DNA from: Dehalococcoidia bacterium
GTDB lineage: Bacteria; Chloroflexota; Dehalococcoidia; Lucifugimonadales; Lucifugimonadaceae
Direction of reading: 5' to 3'
Length of the DNA stretch: 64,000 nucleotides
NCBI GenBank assembly: GCA_009693115.1
Contig: SHXW01000001.1
Coordinates: forward strand, 62,001 to 126,000
Below the pieces are notes generated by a model. That model saw only the letters and a program-made list of their open reading frames with translations. It did no database searches and was not told where the DNA came from. The translations under genes were made by a program, and so were the position numbers. Below are positions 1-7,488 of this stretch, piece by piece; within the stretch, counting starts at the first letter, position 1, and each line of letters begins with the position of its first letter.

Positions 1-957
1 CTTTGGCGCGACCGCGTCCAGACCGATGTCCCGCAGCCCGCGCACTACCCTATCGCGCCGCCGTCTGTAGATTGCGTTGTTACCGTCCAGCCATCTCTGC
101 GGGAGGTTGATGGCGGCGATACCCATCTCCTGAATCGCCTGCGACAGCCCAGAGTCTATGTTGGACTTTACCCGCATCAGCGCGTTCACCATCGCTGAGT
201 TGCCGACCGCCATGCCCACGCGCCAGCCCGTCATATTCGCCGTCTTGGACAGCGAGTGAAACTCCATGCAGATGTCCATCGCGCCCTTCGCCTGGAGCGC
301 GCTCGGGGCCACGTAGCCCTCGTACGTCACCTCCGTGTAACAGGCGTCGTGCAGGAGATAGAGGTCGAACTCCTTGCAGTAGCGCACCGCCTCCTCAAAG
401 AATTCCAGGTTGGCGACTGCGCCCGTGGGGTTGTTTGGGTAGTTCAGCCATAGCACCTTCGCACGCTTCGCAACGTCCGTCGGGATGTCGGCGAAGTCCA
501 TTAGGAAGCCGTTCTTCTCCTTCAGAGGGACGTAGTGCGTGATGCCTCCGGCGAACATCGTGCCGATGTTGTAAACCGGGTAAGCCGGGTCCGGCACGAT
601 GGCTGTGTCGCCGGGGTCGATAAAGCAGAGCGCGGCGTGGCCTATCCCCTCCTTGGCGCCGATGAGGTTGATCGCCTCGGTGGCCGGGTCCAGCTTCACG
701 CCGAAGCGGCGCATGTAGAAGTCGCACACAGCCTTGCGGAACTCCGGAAGGCCTTCCGATTCCGGGTAGCGGTGGTTCGCGGGCTTGTGTGCGCCCTTTT
801 CGAGCGCGTCGAGCACAGGGTCAGGCGTCGGGATGTCAGGGTCGCCTATCCCGAACGAGATCACGTCTATGCCCTTTGCCCTTTTCTCGGCGATGGCCCT
901 CGAAATGCCGACGAACAGGTACGGAGGGAGTTGCTGCACACGCTTTGCCAGTTGCAT
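1..957 (-). CDS. dapL: LL-diaminopimelate aminotransferase (partial, cut at window start)
   Basis: PLP-dependent class I/II aminotransferase that converts tetrahydrodipicolinate directly to LL-diaminopimelate for lysine and peptidoglycan synthesis. Translation from the ATG at 957 gives an N-terminal substrate loop (FGIGDPDIPTPDP), the NYPNNPTG segment, and the PLP-lysine motif SLSKTANMTGWRVG near residue 240. Only about 319 codons are visible and the C-terminus lies outside the window; DapL is usually about 390-410 residues. The next gene on the same strand, dapF, encodes the following step, which supports DapL over a generic aspartate aminotransferase. The family call is firm; the exact substrate is inferred. 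Confidence 0.88.
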   Translation of the reverse strand, partial: MQLAKRVQQLPPYLFVGISRAIAEKRAKGIDVISFGIGDPDIPTPDPVLDALEKGAHKPANHRYPESEGLPEFRKAVCDFYMRRFGVKLDPATEAINLIGAKEGIGHAALCFIDPGDTAIVPDPAYPVYNIGTMFAGGITHYVPLKEKNGFLMDFADIPTDVAKRAKVLWLNYPNNPTGAVANLEFFEEAVRYCKEFDLYLLHDACYTEVTYEGYVAPSALQAKGAMDICMEFHSLSKTANMTGWRVGMAVGNSAMVNALMRVKSNIDSGLSQAIQEMGIAAINLPQRWLDGNNAIYRRRRDRVVRGLRDIGLDAVAPK

Positions 958-1295: not shown

Positions 1296-2153
1296 TCAGT
1301 CCGGCCACACGCCGGTGAAGACCTCGACGGCCGGCCCTTCGAGGAATGCCTCGCCCTTGCCCGGCCACGCTATTTTCAAGATGCCGCCCGGCAGGAGCAC
1401 CTCGGCCTCGTCCCCCACAAAGTTGTGGATGCGCGACGCGATAAACGATGCCGTGCTGCCCGTCCCCGACGATAGCGTCTCCCCTGCCCCGCGCTCGAAG
1501 ATGCGTGCCCTGATCTGGGACTTCGATAGCACATTCACGATCTCGAAGTTGACCCGGTTCGGGAAGATCTTGTGCCTCTCGACCAATGGGCCGATCTCAA
1601 GCAGCGGGAACTGCTCGACAGGCTCGTCCGGGAATACCACGCAATGCGGGTTGCCTATGGCCAGGCAGGTGATCTTCAGCGTCCGGTTGCCCACCTTCAG
1701 GGGATAGTCAAACACACGCTCGGGGCTACCCACAGCGGCGGAGTCAACGGGGATCTCCTCAGGCATAAATGTAGGCGCACCCATCCCCACGCGCGCCGCC
1801 TCCATTTTGTCGCCCTTCATGCGAGGCCACAGTGTGCGCACGCCGCCACCCGTCTCGATCACCATCCCGCCGTCCGGCCCCGGCAGCGCTATCTTGCGGT
1901 CGATCACGAACTTCGCAAAGAGGCGGATGCCGTTCCCGCTCATCTCGGCTTCGGAACCGTCAGGGTTGAACACGCGCATCCGCACCTGCGCCTTGCGGGA
2001 CTTCTGGACCACGACGATCCCGTCGGAACCGACGCCGAACGCAGGCTTGCTCATATCCACCGATAGCGTCGACCAGTCCCGGTCCGTCTCCCGGCCGTCG
2101 ATGGCTATGTAGTCGTTGCCTGCGCCTTGCAGCTTGGCGAAGGGAAGTGGCAA
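1296..2153 (-). CDS. dapF: Diaminopimelate epimerase-family protein, both catalytic Cys replaced by Ser
   Basis: DapF interconverts LL- and meso-diaminopimelate. The protein has the family substrate motif GAGNDY near residue 10, a MSGNGIRLFAKF segment near residue 71 and ERGAGETLSSGTGS near residue 225, and its roughly 285 residues fit the family. In characterised DapF the two active-site bases are cysteines (CGNGxR and GETxACGTG); here both positions are serine (codons AGC and TCG). I chose the TTG at 2153 because AGGGAG lies six bases upstream and the protein then begins just before the conserved GAGNDY region; an upstream start at 2255 would add an unconserved leader. It follows dapL on the same strand. 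Activity on diaminopimelate is inferred from context. Confidence 0.85.
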   Translation of the reverse strand: MPLPFAKLQGAGNDYIAIDGRETDRDWSTLSVDMSKPAFGVGSDGIVVVQKSRKAQVRMRVFNPDGSEAEMSGNGIRLFAKFVIDRKIALPGPDGGMVIETGGGVRTLWPRMKGDKMEAARVGMGAPTFMPEEIPVDSAAVGSPERVFDYPLKVGNRTLKITCLAIGNPHCVVFPDEPVEQFPLLEIGPLVERHKIFPNRVNFEIVNVLSKSQIRARIFERGAGETLSSGTGSTASFIASRIHNFVGDEAEVLLPGGILKIAWPGKGEAFLEGPAVEVFTGVWPD

Positions 2154-2343
2154 AGGATGCTCCCTGGTCTTTGAACATTGCAGCGCCCCGGAGAGGGGCC
2201 GTATGGAATAACGCTTAATGGCGGGCATGAAACCGGTGTGCCATTGTAGGGCCACCTGAGATTTCCCCCCCCCTTATATAGGAAGAAGGCGCATGGTGAG
2301 CGCATTGGTCAGAACGGCTGCCGGGTGGCTGTCAGTTTTGACG

Positions 2344-3282
2344 TTATTGACAGTCCGTCAGGAGCCAGTCTTGAACGGCCGCCTTCGCTCTGCTCGCCAG
2401 GTCCGGCCCAGATTCTAGCCACTTCACCCGCGGGTCGGACAGCTTAAACCAGTTGTACTGGTGGCGCACAAGGCGGCGCGTCGCCTTCTTCGCCGCCGCC
2501 ACTGCCTGGGCCAGAGTTAACTCGCCGGCGACGTGTGCCGTCATTTCCCGGTAGCCAATGCCCGACATCGCAGGCGCGTCCGTTGGCACGCCCGCTCCGA
2601 TCAAACCGCGTACCTCCTCAACCCACCCCGCGTCCGCCATCGCATCGATGCGCCGGTCAACCATACCGTACAACGCTGGTCGGGGAATCGTCAGGCCGAT
2701 CACCAGCGCGTCGTAAGGCGGTTCTGCCGCCCGGCGTTGCGCGCTCCCGCCCTCCAGCCCGGCTGCGGCCCGTTCCAGAGCGCGTATCACCCGTCGCGGG
2801 TTCTTCGCGTCAACAGCCGCCGCAGCCGCGGGATCCGCCTCGTGCAGCCGTGCGTGCAGCGATGCGACGCCCTGTTCCGCAAGCTGCCTCTCCAGTTCAC
2901 TGCGCAGCGCCTCATCTGGAGCGACTTTTGGCACGTCCCAGCCTTCGAGCAGGCCCCAGACATACTGCCCCGTCCCACCGGCGAGGATCGGCAGCCCGCC
3001 GCGGCCCGTGATTTCGCCGATCAGCGCCCTGGTCGCGTCCAAGAACGAAGCCAGGTTGAATGATTCATCCGGCCCGAGGCAGTCGATCAGGTGGTGGGTG
3101 ACACCCCTGCGCTCCTGGAACGAAGGCTTGGCCGTCCCGATGTTAAAGCCGCGGTAGAAGAGGCGCGAGTCTGCGTTGATGATCTCGCCTTGAAACGCCA
3201 GCGCCAGTTCGACGGCGAGCGCGCTCTTACCCGTTGCAGTCGGGCCGACAACAGCGATCAGACCAGTTTTGGAAGCTGTCAT
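2344..3282 (-). CDS. miaA: tRNA dimethylallyltransferase
   Basis: Transfers a dimethylallyl group to N6 of A37 in tRNAs reading UNN codons. The 312-residue protein has a P-loop near the N-terminus (GPTATGKSALAVELA), the DSR/YRGFNIGTAKP segment typical of MiaA, and an arginine-rich C-terminal part (KKATRRLVRHQYNWF) that grips the anticodon arm. Length is normal for the family. It lies on the minus strand downstream of tpiA, separated by a gap holding a repeat copy, so it is probably transcribed separately. Confidence 0.95.
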   Translation of the reverse strand: MTASKTGLIAVVGPTATGKSALAVELALAFQGEIINADSRLFYRGFNIGTAKPSFQERRGVTHHLIDCLGPDESFNLASFLDATRALIGEITGRGGLPILAGGTGQYVWGLLEGWDVPKVAPDEALRSELERQLAEQGVASLHARLHEADPAAAAAVDAKNPRRVIRALERAAAGLEGGSAQRRAAEPPYDALVIGLTIPRPALYGMVDRRIDAMADAGWVEEVRGLIGAGVPTDAPAMSGIGYREMTAHVAGELTLAQAVAAAKKATRRLVRHQYNWFKLSDPRVKWLESGPDLASRAKAAVQDWLLTDCQ

Positions 3283-3475: not shown

Positions 3476-4252
3476 CTACTTCGCGCTCGCAGCGATGCTC
3501 GCCGTCACTTGCACGATCTTCGCGAAGTCGTCCGCCTTCAGGCTGGCCCCGCCCACTAGCGCGCCGTCAATATCAGGCCGGTCAACGAACGGCCCGGCAT
3601 TTTCCCCAGTCACGCTGCCGCCGTACAAAATCGCGAACCCGTCAACCGGCTCACGGCCTGCGATCGACTTCAACTCCTGCCTGATCGCACCTGCCATGTC
3701 TCCGGCCTGCTCAGGCGTCGCCGCCTTGCCCGTCCCGATCGCCCAGACCGGCTCGTAGGCCACGGCCAGATAGCCCCAGGCGTCAAACCCTTCCAGGCTG
3801 GCTTTGAGTTGCGCCCTCACGGCCTGCTCCGCCCTGCCCGACTCCCTGATTTCGAGCGACTCGCCCACGCACAGCACCGCCCTGATGCGCCTCGCCGCGA
3901 CCGCCTTTGCCTTGGCCGCAACGTCCGCGTCAGTCTCCCCGAAAATCTTGCGCCGCTCAGAGTGGCCGACGATTGCGAATTCAACAAGGCCATCGAGCAT
4001 GGGCGCGGAGACCTCGCCGGTGAACGCTCCCGAATCCTTCGAGTGGACGTTTTGCGCGCCGATCAGGATGCCACTGCCGGCAACCGCCTGCCGCACCGCA
4101 TGGACCGAGACGAACGGCGGGCAGACGACCCTGATCACACCCTTGACTCCGGCTGTCTTCTCAACGACGGCCTTCGCGAGCTCGACCGCGACCGTGGGCG
4201 TCGTGTTCATCTTCCAGTTGCCAGCGATGATCGGCGTCCTGCCCTTCTTCAT
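3476..4252 (-). CDS. tpiA: Triosephosphate isomerase
   Basis: Interconverts dihydroxyacetone phosphate and glyceraldehyde 3-phosphate. The 258-residue TIM barrel carries GNWKMN with the catalytic lysine near residue 13, GHSERR with the electrophilic histidine near 97, and AYEPVWAIGTG with the catalytic glutamate near 168. An AGGAG ten bases before the ATG overlaps the end of pgk, and the six-base gap between the genes indicates a pgk-tpiA operon. Confidence 0.97.
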   Translation of the reverse strand: MKKGRTPIIAGNWKMNTTPTVAVELAKAVVEKTAGVKGVIRVVCPPFVSVHAVRQAVAGSGILIGAQNVHSKDSGAFTGEVSAPMLDGLVEFAIVGHSERRKIFGETDADVAAKAKAVAARRIRAVLCVGESLEIRESGRAEQAVRAQLKASLEGFDAWGYLAVAYEPVWAIGTGKAATPEQAGDMAGAIRQELKSIAGREPVDGFAILYGGSVTGENAGPFVDRPDIDGALVGGASLKADDFAKIVQVTASIAASAK

Positions 4253-4258
4253 GCGTGT

Positions 4259-5452
4259 CTAACTCCTGTCCAGCAGAGCGGCCACGCCCGGCAGGACCTT
4301 GCCCTCTAGGAACTCCAGCGACGCTCCGCCGCCGGTCGAAACGTGCGTGAAACGGTCGCGCAGGCCCATCCGCTCCACGACCTCAGCGGTCGAGCCGCCA
4401 CCGACAACCGTCGTGGCAGCCCGGTTCGCGGCCACGGCCTGCGCTACCGCCTTCGTGCCTTCGGCGAACTGCGGCCACTCGAAGACGCCCATCGGCCCGT
4501 TCCAGATTACAGCCCGTGATCTTGCGATCTCCGCCGCGTAGGCCTTGCGCGCCTGCGGGCCGATGTCGAGTATCAGCGCATCCGCGGGCACGGCAGACGC
4601 GGCGACGGTCTGCGCCTTCGCATCCGCCGAGAACACCGTCGCAACCAGCACGTCTGCTGGCAGCAGCACGGCAGGCTTCGACGCTGCCAGCAGCCGCTCT
4701 GCGGCTTCAACCTCTGCGGGCGTCACGTCCGTCTTGCCGCTGCCCATCCCTTTTGCCTTGAAGAACGCCGCCACCATTCCTCCGCCTATCAACAGTGCGT
4801 CCATGCGAGGCGCGATGTGCGTCAGCACTTGTATCTTGTCCGCCACCTTCGCTCCGCCCACGATCGCGATCGCCGGGCGGGCCGACGCATTCAGCGCTGC
4901 GCTGAGCATTTCGATCTCTCGCGCCATCAGCAGGCCTGCGACCGCAGGCAGGCGATTCGCCACGCCCACGACCGACGCGTGCGCGCGGTGCGCGGCGGCG
5001 AATGCATCGTCCACATAAATATCCGCGAGCGAAGCCAGTGATGCCGCGAAGACGTCGTCGTTCTTCTCTTCGCCGGGGTCGAAGCGCAGGTTTTCCAGCA
5101 ACGCGACCTGTCCCGCCTTCATCGCCGTTGCCACCCTCGCAGGCTGCGGGCCAGCCGGGCCTCCGGCGTCAAGCACTTCCGCTCCGAGGAGTTCGCCGAG
5201 CCGCCGCCGCATGGGTGTCAGACGTTCCTTGTCAACCACCTTGCCGCCTGGGCGGCCAAAGTGGGAGCAGGCGATCACCGCTGCCCCCTGTTCTCGCAGG
5301 TAGTTGATCGTGGGGAGCGATAGGCGGATGCGTGAGTCGTCTGTGATCTCGCCTGCCTCATTCACAGGCACGTTGAAGTCAACGCGCACCAGCACGCGCT
5401 TCCCGCGCATGTCCACGTCTTTGATTGTCTTCTTGGGAACGATCTCAGTAAT
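4259..5452 (-). CDS. pgk: Phosphoglycerate kinase, possible ATT start
   Basis: Transfers phosphate between 1,3-bisphosphoglycerate and ADP in glycolysis. The protein shows RVDFNVP near the N-terminus, SHFGRPGG, the GGAKVADKI nucleotide region, and a C-terminal GGGSTAEVVERMG glycine-rich loop. In-frame GTG (5416) and ATG (5410) starts would cut off the family-conserved residues KKTIKDVD that are encoded just upstream. No ATG, GTG or TTG precedes those residues, but an ATT at 5452 follows GAGGGAGA at a good spacing and gives a normal 397-residue length. This upstream segment belongs to a dispersed repeat also found at 11533-11600. The start is therefore uncertain; the gene call is firm. It precedes tpiA. 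Confidence 0.93.
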   Translation of the reverse strand: MTEIVPKKTIKDVDMRGKRVLVRVDFNVPVNEAGEITDDSRIRLSLPTINYLREQGAAVIACSHFGRPGGKVVDKERLTPMRRRLGELLGAEVLDAGGPAGPQPARVATAMKAGQVALLENLRFDPGEEKNDDVFAASLASLADIYVDDAFAAAHRAHASVVGVANRLPAVAGLLMAREIEMLSAALNASARPAIAIVGGAKVADKIQVLTHIAPRMDALLIGGGMVAAFFKAKGMGSGKTDVTPAEVEAAERLLAASKPAVLLPADVLVATVFSADAKAQTVAASAVPADALILDIGPQARKAYAAEIARSRAVIWNGPMGVFEWPQFAEGTKAVAQAVAANRAATTVVGGGSTAEVVERMGLRDRFTHVSTGGGASLEFLEGKVLPGVAALLDRS

Positions 5453-6655: not shown

Positions 6656-7177
6656 CTATCTCAATAACCCCAGCCGCCAGCACCGCCTGTACCAGATGAG
6701 CATGCAGTCCAGCTGGATAAGGTCGAGGTAGTTGCGGGCTTTCTTGTCGAAGCGAACCAGGAGAGCGCGGCACTTTGAGAGCCAGCCTATCGTCCGCTCC
6801 ACTACCCACCTGCGAGCAGGGAACCTCTTCTCTCCATGCTCGTCGAGCTTTCCCTCGCCTATTCTCCTTATGTGCGGGATGTAGCCGTTGAAGAGCGCCT
6901 CCAACTCTCCTTCGGCGTTGTCATAGCCTTTGTCCAGACACAGGTTCTGCACGGTGCCCTCTGGACGTTTGACGACCACAGCCTCGATCGTGGCTCGCAA
7001 GAGCTTGAAGTCATTCACGTTCGCCCCGGCTACCACGACGCTCAGCGGCCCGCCGTCGCCATCAACGAGGATGCTCTTCTTGCTCCCAGCTTTGGCTCTG
7101 TCCGTCGGGTTCGGACCGATGAGGTCCCCCCCGTGCGGGCCTTGCCCATGACGCCGTCCACTGCCTGCCATTCCCAA
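6656..7177 (-). CDS. IS5-family transposase, C-terminal frame (OrfB, reached by -1 frameshift)
   Basis: Carries the second half of the DDE transposase: GPNPTDRAKAGSKKSI, the second catalytic aspartate in VVAGANVNDFKLL, the DKGYDNAE segment, and the third acidic residue in RRWVVERTIGW followed by the RxxxLxxRFDK pattern. It has no convincing start of its own. The frame is -1 relative to the upstream frame, and the first residues homologous to the family begin right after the G7 tract (7126-7132), so it is probably expressed as a fusion. Confidence 0.9.
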   Translation of the reverse strand: MGMAGSGRRHGQGPHGGDLIGPNPTDRAKAGSKKSILVDGDGGPLSVVVAGANVNDFKLLRATIEAVVVKRPEGTVQNLCLDKGYDNAEGELEALFNGYIPHIRRIGEGKLDEHGEKRFPARRWVVERTIGWLSKCRALLVRFDKKARNYLDLIQLDCMLIWYRRCWRLGLLR

Positions 7178-7488
7178 TGCACGGCGCCAAGATCGTCGCA
7201 GCGCTCAATGAGCAGCGCCCAGACCCTCTCGAAAACGCCTCTGTTCACCCACCGCTGGAACGTCCGGTGTACTGACGAGTCGTCGCCAAACTCCCTGGGC
7301 AGGTGGTTCCAGTGGCAGCTTGTGCGCATGCGGAAGATGATCCCGTTCAGAGCGCGCCGCGGGTCTATCCTGGGCCGGCCATGTCTTCCATTTGGATCAG
7401 GGTCAACCTCGTCGAGCACCCTCTTGACCTCCGCCCACAAGTCGTCCGGGACCTCCCAGATCGTGGCCAGTTCATCTCGCTTGTCCAT
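7042..7488 (-). CDS. IS5-family transposase, N-terminal frame (OrfA)
   Basis: N-terminal DNA-binding part of the transposase. GRPRIDPRRALNGIIFRMRT and WNHLPREFGDDSSVHRTFQRW are typical of the DUF4096-type domain of this IS group, and the first catalytic aspartate is in WQAVDGVMGKA. Homology to the family ends at RTGG, exactly at seven consecutive G residues (minus strand, 7132-7126); beyond this point the frame continues with unconserved residues to a stop at 7042. A -1 slip there restores the reading RTGG-DLIGPNPTD. Confidence 0.9.
   Translation of the reverse strand: MDKRDELATIWEVPDDLWAEVKRVLDEVDPDPNGRHGRPRIDPRRALNGIIFRMRTSCHWNHLPREFGDDSSVHRTFQRWVNRGVFERVWALLIERCDDLGAVHWEWQAVDGVMGKARTGGTSSVRTRRTEPKLGARRASSLMATAGR

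Follow-up and report, generated by a model that had tools for sequence, protein, structure and literature searches.

Serine in place of both catalytic cysteines in a diaminopimelate epimerase family of Dehalococcoidia and other bacteria

The dapF gene in a 64,000-nucleotide stretch of a Dehalococcoidia genome (contig SHXW01000001.1 of assembly GCA_009693115.1, positions 62,001 to 126,000; hereafter the window) encodes a protein of the diaminopimelate (DAP) epimerase family in which both catalytic cysteines are replaced by serine. We infer that this Ser/Ser pair is a new DapF variant that is convergent and functional. The window protein is, on balance, probably a working epimerase with a Ser/Ser acid/base pair, and the sole one of its genome. 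It very probably makes meso-DAP, and there is a reasonable likelihood that the hydroxyls of Ser72 and Ser229 are the proton carriers. The role in making meso-DAP is well supported, yet the serine chemistry is in question because single Cys-to-Ser mutants of relatives are nearly inactive and no report of a two-serine epimerase was found.

DapF is the textbook two-cysteine enzyme and a model for the cofactor-free removal of a very weakly acidic proton by a weak base. It is also an antibacterial target, and the aziDAP inhibitors bind its cysteines covalently. If natural Ser/Ser enzymes work, a thiol is not required, and the thiolate-thiol view of this enzyme class would be overturned. Such enzymes would be immune to thiol-directed inhibitors, and they should be insensitive to a disulfide switch of the type described for C. 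glutamicum DapF (PMC5296763). They would also offer a ready comparison set of Cys/Cys, Ser/Cys, Cys/Ser and Ser/Ser enzymes from one order, and would account for single Cys-to-Ser mutants being misleading.

Catalytic positions, fold and fixation in the family

The window protein scores 222.7 bits on TIGR00652, the DapF equivalog model (cut-off 114.65). Its catalytic columns were located by aligning the protein with HMMER to 9mro, a cyanobacterial DapF, and were counted by hand. The original prediction, that both active-site cysteines read as serine while the rest of both motifs and GAGNDY are kept, agrees with this alignment: Ser72 (AGC) and Ser229 (TCG) occupy the two positions, and the GAGNDY, GNG.R, GNPH and ERG.GET motifs are intact. 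The canonical Cys/Cys acid/base pair, which defines the described DapF mechanism, is therefore missing. Judged by sequence, this lowers the claim to the canonical mechanism but not to kinship with the DapF family, because Ser/Cys, Cys/Ser and Ser/Ser members occur in the sampled family as well.

An AlphaFold model made with a 20-sequence alignment has a predicted local distance difference test score of 93.3. It has the DapF fold, matching 9mro with a template modelling score of 0.88–0.90 (E 8.9e-32), and the 26 top fold matches in the PDB are all DapF except two O-ureidoserine racemase chains. In the predicted model, Ser72 lies just ahead of helix 73–85 and Ser229 just ahead of helix 230–242, on the N-terminal side of each. 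This placement at helix starts appears to match that described for the DapF cysteines. Asn66, Asn164, Asn197, Glu215 and Arg216 are reported to hold DAP at its distal end (PMC12039745). All five are kept in the window protein as N63, N168, N202, E220 and R221, and they are conserved at 98–100% in the source family and at 94–100% across the Ser/Ser groups, the lowest value being that of N168 in Lachnospiraceae. His170 and Glu220 are kept in 100% of the source family, and the counterpart of His170, in the GNPH motif, is reported to be essential in DapF (PMC5885031).

Nearby columns also differ between the source family and Cys/Cys DapF, with Cys to Leu at 78, Trp to Phe at 219 and Ala to Ser at 228. 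Changes that recur in the Ser/Ser groups are Trp219 to Phe or Tyr, Met166 to Val or Ile, and Ala228 to Ser. Shared compensating columns (219, 166, 228) are not claimed, since there are exceptions among the Ser/Ser groups (Trp219 and Ala228 are each unchanged in most of one group, and 32% of the Acidobacteriota group retain Met166) and Cys/Cys Acidobacteriota likewise lack Trp219 and Met166.

The substitution is fixed in the source family, Lucifugimonadaceae. A DapF match was found in 67 of 76 family genomes, including all 26 with a completeness of at least 90% and a contamination of at most 5%, and every one of the 67 is Ser/Ser (in one the gene is in two pieces on two contigs, each with its serine). 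The first serine is an AGY codon and the second a TCN codon in 66/66 intact genes. Each of these 67 genomes has one DapF, and a second DapF gene was seen in none of them. The source genome (G000, 95.6% complete) likewise yields a single protein with PF01678, which rules out a second, canonical Cys/Cys DapF there. Purifying selection on dapF is strong, with a median ratio of nonsynonymous to synonymous substitution (dN/dS) of 0.045 and a maximum of 0.08 (11 of 105 close pairs with usable dS).

Outside the family, a DapF match was present in 122 genomes of the order. The sample read comprised 58 genes from 57 of these, chosen as the 15 best matches plus two loci (L015 and L022) and then mostly one per family, with two doubly read genes counted once. 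Among these, 54 are Cys/Cys, with one each of Ser/Cys, Cys/Ser, Ser/Ser and a gene unreadable at one column, so that all four states occur within one order. The lone non-family Ser/Ser gene (L387) is a divergent second copy in a genome (G532) whose other copy (L069) is Cys/Cys. Its motifs read ISGNGLRIF and ASGSSSCA, and it resembles an Acidobacteriota gene (L409) and the Lachnospiraceae paralogue described below; together these may constitute a distinct subfamily that acts on a different substrate. A further 25 loci from the class and phylum, taken as best matches, gave 20 Cys/Cys and 5 Ser/Cys.

Metabolic role, wider distribution and origins

In the proposed pathway, DapL would produce LL-DAP, the Ser/Ser DapF would invert one alpha carbon to give meso-DAP, and LysA would decarboxylate meso-DAP to L-lysine. 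The source genome has both dapL and lysA, the genes of the DapL route to lysine; its only lysA (G000:C4) scores 466 bits, above the cut-off. A lysA gene was found in 72 of the 76 family genomes, 66 of them above the cut-off, and in 26/26 of the good-quality ones. The original prediction had dapL next door to dapF, and this holds in the window (a TIGR03540 match at 1–957) as well as in 39/39 Lucifugimonadaceae loci with flanks and 15 of 17 order loci. The meso-DAP dehydrogenase Ddh (TIGR01921) had no match in the source genome, which rules out this bypass there, and it was not found in 8 family genome entries (two of these entries probably represent the same genome).

It appears that lysine is the sole purpose of meso-DAP in this lineage. 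Mur_ligase_M gave one match in 71 of the 76 family genomes, none in 5 and never two, so that the several Mur ligases of a peptidoglycan producer were seen neither in the source genome nor in any other of the family. The murC-F genes are missing from the source genome, because its sole Mur-ligase-like protein reads, by eye, as FolC. SAR202 and marine Dehalococcoidia are described as lacking peptidoglycan (PMC10444878, PMC11994032, PMC10284905), and the source family probably belongs near this marine group. The SAR202 papers treat peptidoglycan, and no occurrence of lysine was found in them. If no peptidoglycan is made, meso-DAP would therefore be needed for lysine alone.

The strongest argument for a working Ser/Ser pair comes from Solirubrobacterales. 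Exactly one DapF was found in each of 61 genomes; 60 are Ser/Ser, and one is cut off after the first serine. The cultured strain Patulibacter americanus DSM 16676 is among the organisms with a single, Ser/Ser DapF. Meso-DAP is given as the diagnostic diamino acid of the wall for every member of this order (PMC3035278), and meso-DAP dehydrogenase had no match in 10/10 genomes of the order tested. Since the wall contains meso-DAP, there is one DapF and Ddh is unmatched, the Ser/Ser DapF would be the source of this meso-DAP, unless some unrecognised enzyme makes it. Taxon labels were taken as follows: the order of Patulibacter americanus as Solirubrobacterales, its phylum as Actinomycetota, and the phylum of one further genome (G608) as Acidobacteriota.

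One option offered by the original prediction was that in this lineage serine acts as the base. This option fits the data, although "this lineage" appears too narrow, as Ser/Ser is found far more widely. When the genome collection was scanned for the pattern ERG.G.T with a TCN serine after it, at least 120 stretches were obtained; the pattern requires serine, so no frequency can be derived from it. Each of the 120 matches listed sits in a frame that carries the second motif of DapF, and apart from a few truncated ones they align as DapF with Ser or Cys at the first position. They come from Acidobacteriota, Aminicenantes, Solirubrobacterales and other Actinomycetota, Lachnospiraceae, Myxococcota, Chloroflexota and a few others. 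Fifty genomes from among these matches were searched with PF01678, and 35 yielded nothing beyond the two halves of a single gene (32 Ser/Ser, 3 Cys/Ser). The remaining 15 gave extra matches, and the second gene in Lachnospiraceae and Myxococcota is Cys/Cys where read. By phylum, a DapF match was present in 75 of 80 Acidobacteriota genomes, the best-scoring 30 being 21 Ser/Ser, 8 Cys/Cys and 1 Cys/Ser, and in 57 of 60 Actinomycetota genomes, the best-scoring 30 being 27 Cys/Cys, 2 Ser/Cys and 1 Cys/Ser.

In Lachnospiraceae, a Ser/Ser dapF-like gene lies about 2–3 kilobases from a Cys/Cys dapF (L147 of Clostridium asparagiforme DSM 15981, L151 and L177), and both genomes tested (G602, G633) have meso-DAP dehydrogenase. 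Certain Acidobacteriota genes (L406, L412, L414, L415, L419, L421 and L425–L427), either Cys/Cys or Cys/Ser, are a divergent DapF type: in their second motif ERGV is followed by an additional residue, and the Cys/Cys ones have Val at the Asn column of GNPH.

To judge from the tree, the Ser/Ser pair arose at least twice, because an approximately unbiased (AU) test rejects a single clade of all Ser/Ser sequences (p 0.0043), and one ancient Ser/Ser clade is thereby ruled out. The tree was a quick one of 87 rows, partly a random choice and partly fixed, with the motif columns removed. The source family groups with two Myxococcota genes at a branch support of 100, nested among Cys/Cys Chloroflexota (99). 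The Ser/Ser genes of Acidobacteriota, Solirubrobacterales and Lachnospiraceae may have a common origin (branch support 56). More than one origin is also compatible with the codon types, which are AGY/TCN in the source family and Lachnospiraceae and TCN/TCN in nearly all Acidobacteriota and Solirubrobacterales. The Ser/Cys and Cys/Ser stages are also found separately. Three Myxococcota loci (L123, L139, L158) have a Ser/Ser DapF besides a Cys/Cys DapF, and the first two are those that group with the source family. The Myxococcota Ser/Ser genes are likely cross-phylum transfers from near this family.

General loss of cysteine was not seen in the source genome, with 1.09% Cys in window frames of at least 300 residues (counted from the first Met in a crude frame set that includes spurious frames). 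DapF proteins of the source family have a mean of 1.81 other cysteines, compared to 3.16 in Cys/Cys Chloroflexota. The Ser/Ser proteins of Acidobacteriota (4.56) and Lachnospiraceae (5.84) are not Cys-poor, and an oxidation-proof active site was rejected as a general reason for Ser/Ser.

Serine chemistry and competing explanations

In the proposed mechanism, Ser72 and Ser229, each at the N-terminus of one of two helices that face each other, would take over the roles of the cysteines. One serine would remove the alpha proton, and the other would give a proton back from the opposite face. Several observations weigh against this. Engineered single Cys-to-Ser mutants of PddB are reported to have less than 0.1% activity, which is said to match M. 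tuberculosis DapF, and the pKa of a hydroxyl is put about 6 units above that of a thiol (PMC8225329). Single Cys-to-Ser mutants of HisR are described as "greatly reduced" in activity (PMC11602996). Serine proton transfer would thus be surprising, given the near-complete loss of activity in such mutants of related enzymes. A Ser/Thr member of the proline racemase superfamily is reported in an eLife study to be a dehydratase and no epimerase (PMC4113996). Finally, the source family keeps His170, but 97% of the Solirubrobacterales group have Gln there, so that the catalytic solution need not be identical in every Ser/Ser clade.

Known systems resemble the window protein in part. Canonical DapF (TIGR00652; 9mro, 2otn, 3ejx, 1bwz) is alike in length, two-domain fold, DAP-contact residues and dapL/lysA pathway and, according to the model, in the helix N-terminal catalytic positions, but its acid/base residues are cysteines, both of which are serine here. 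The Ser/Cys 4-hydroxyproline epimerase, a cousin from the proline racemase superfamily, has a natural and functional first-position serine, two-base catalysis and a related fold; it differs in having one serine only and another substrate (PMC4113996). The Ser/Thr trans-3-hydroxyproline dehydratase B9K4G4 (4k7g; fold match rank 30) also has no cysteine at either acid/base position, but it is reported to catalyse dehydration and to have Thr instead of Ser on the second face (PMC4113996). The H. influenzae DapF mutants C73S and C217S (2q9h and 2q9j, by their PDB titles) each carry serine at one of the two positions; they are man-made single changes, whereas those of the window family are double, natural and fixed. 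No description of a two-serine epimerase or of a natural Ser DapF was recognised among the papers listed by searches of an open-licence library.

It is possible, though rather doubtful, that the protein is a DAP epimerase whose serines merely hold the helices or a water, while proton transfer falls to some other group, for instance His170, Glu220 or an ordered water. The complete conservation of His170 and Glu220 in the source family would suit this, as would the high serine pKa, which makes direct base action hard (PMC8225329). A spacer role predicts Ala, Gly or Thr somewhere, but every DapF read at the catalytic columns carries Ser or Cys, save one unreadable base call, and His170 is replaced by Gln in most Solirubrobacterales.

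It is improbable that DAP is bound for another reaction, such as elimination, and that lysine is made without an epimerase by a LysA using LL-DAP. DAP has no leaving group at its beta carbon, dapF is single-copy and beside dapL in all the family loci with flanks, and Solirubrobacterales have wall meso-DAP and only a Ser/Ser-type DapF. What speaks for it is that a Ser/Thr pair marks the dehydratase among the proline racemase cousins (PMC4113996). A changed substrate, with the protein acting as a racemase of another amino acid, has precedents in the histidine racemase and O-ureidoserine racemase on the same fold (7vdy; PMC11602996), and the Lachnospiraceae Ser/Ser copy, which shares its genome with a Cys/Cys DapF, may be an example of this. 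For the window protein it is very unlikely, given that all five contacts to the distal end of DAP are kept in the source family, the protein scores almost double the TIGR00652 cut-off and the source genome has no other DapF. The original prediction's other option, another activity together with a second epimerase, is unsupported, with no second DapF in the source genome or the 67 family genomes and no Ddh in the 8 entries. A decaying protein or a sequencing or assembly error, suggested by the loss of both catalytic cysteines, is scarcely credible: all 67 family genomes share the state with fixed codon types, which rules out sequencing error, dN/dS is low and the change is convergent in other phyla.

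The Ser/Ser acid/base pair remains the preferred reading. The broader proposition, that there are thiol-free DAP epimerases in which a Ser/Ser pair performs cofactor-free alpha-carbon epimerisation at physiological rates, with at least two origins and as the sole epimerase of entire bacterial groups, is about evenly balanced between true and false. The textbook rule on the catalytic residues of DapF is probably incomplete.

Genomic neighbourhood

The features of the dapF region are collected in the table. The TTG start of dapF is a presumed assignment. The dapL match to TIGR03540 reaches 471 bits over residues 1–319, which is under the full-length cut-off since the gene is cut by the window start.

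Table. Features in and around dapF (window coordinates)
Feature	Position	Strand	Basis
dapF, Ser/Ser diaminopimelate epimerase, 285 aa	1296..2153	-	TTG start, TGA stop; TIGR00652
Codon AGC, Ser72, first catalytic Cys position (Cys75 of 9mro)	1938..1940	-	HMMER alignment
Codon TCG, Ser229, second catalytic Cys position (Cys224 of 9mro)	1467..1469	-	HMMER alignment
Codon TCG, Ser228; most Cys/Cys DapF read have Ala there	1470..1472	-	
AGGGAG, likely ribosome-binding site, 6 bases 5' of TTG start	2160..2165	-	inference
dapL, LL-diaminopimelate aminotransferase, truncated by window start, directly downstream of dapF	1..957	-	TIGR03540
miaA, upstream neighbour, outside the mechanism	2344..3282	-	TIGR00174, 234 bits, cut-off 148.65

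Upstream of dapF lie miaA, tpiA and pgk. The last two are adjacent at 3476–5416 on the minus strand, upstream of miaA-dapF-dapL, and a fused pgk/tpi model is the best match for both. Further along, at 6656–7488 on the same strand, two overlapping frames (7042–7488 and 6656–7177) look, by eye, like an IS5-type transposase split in two.
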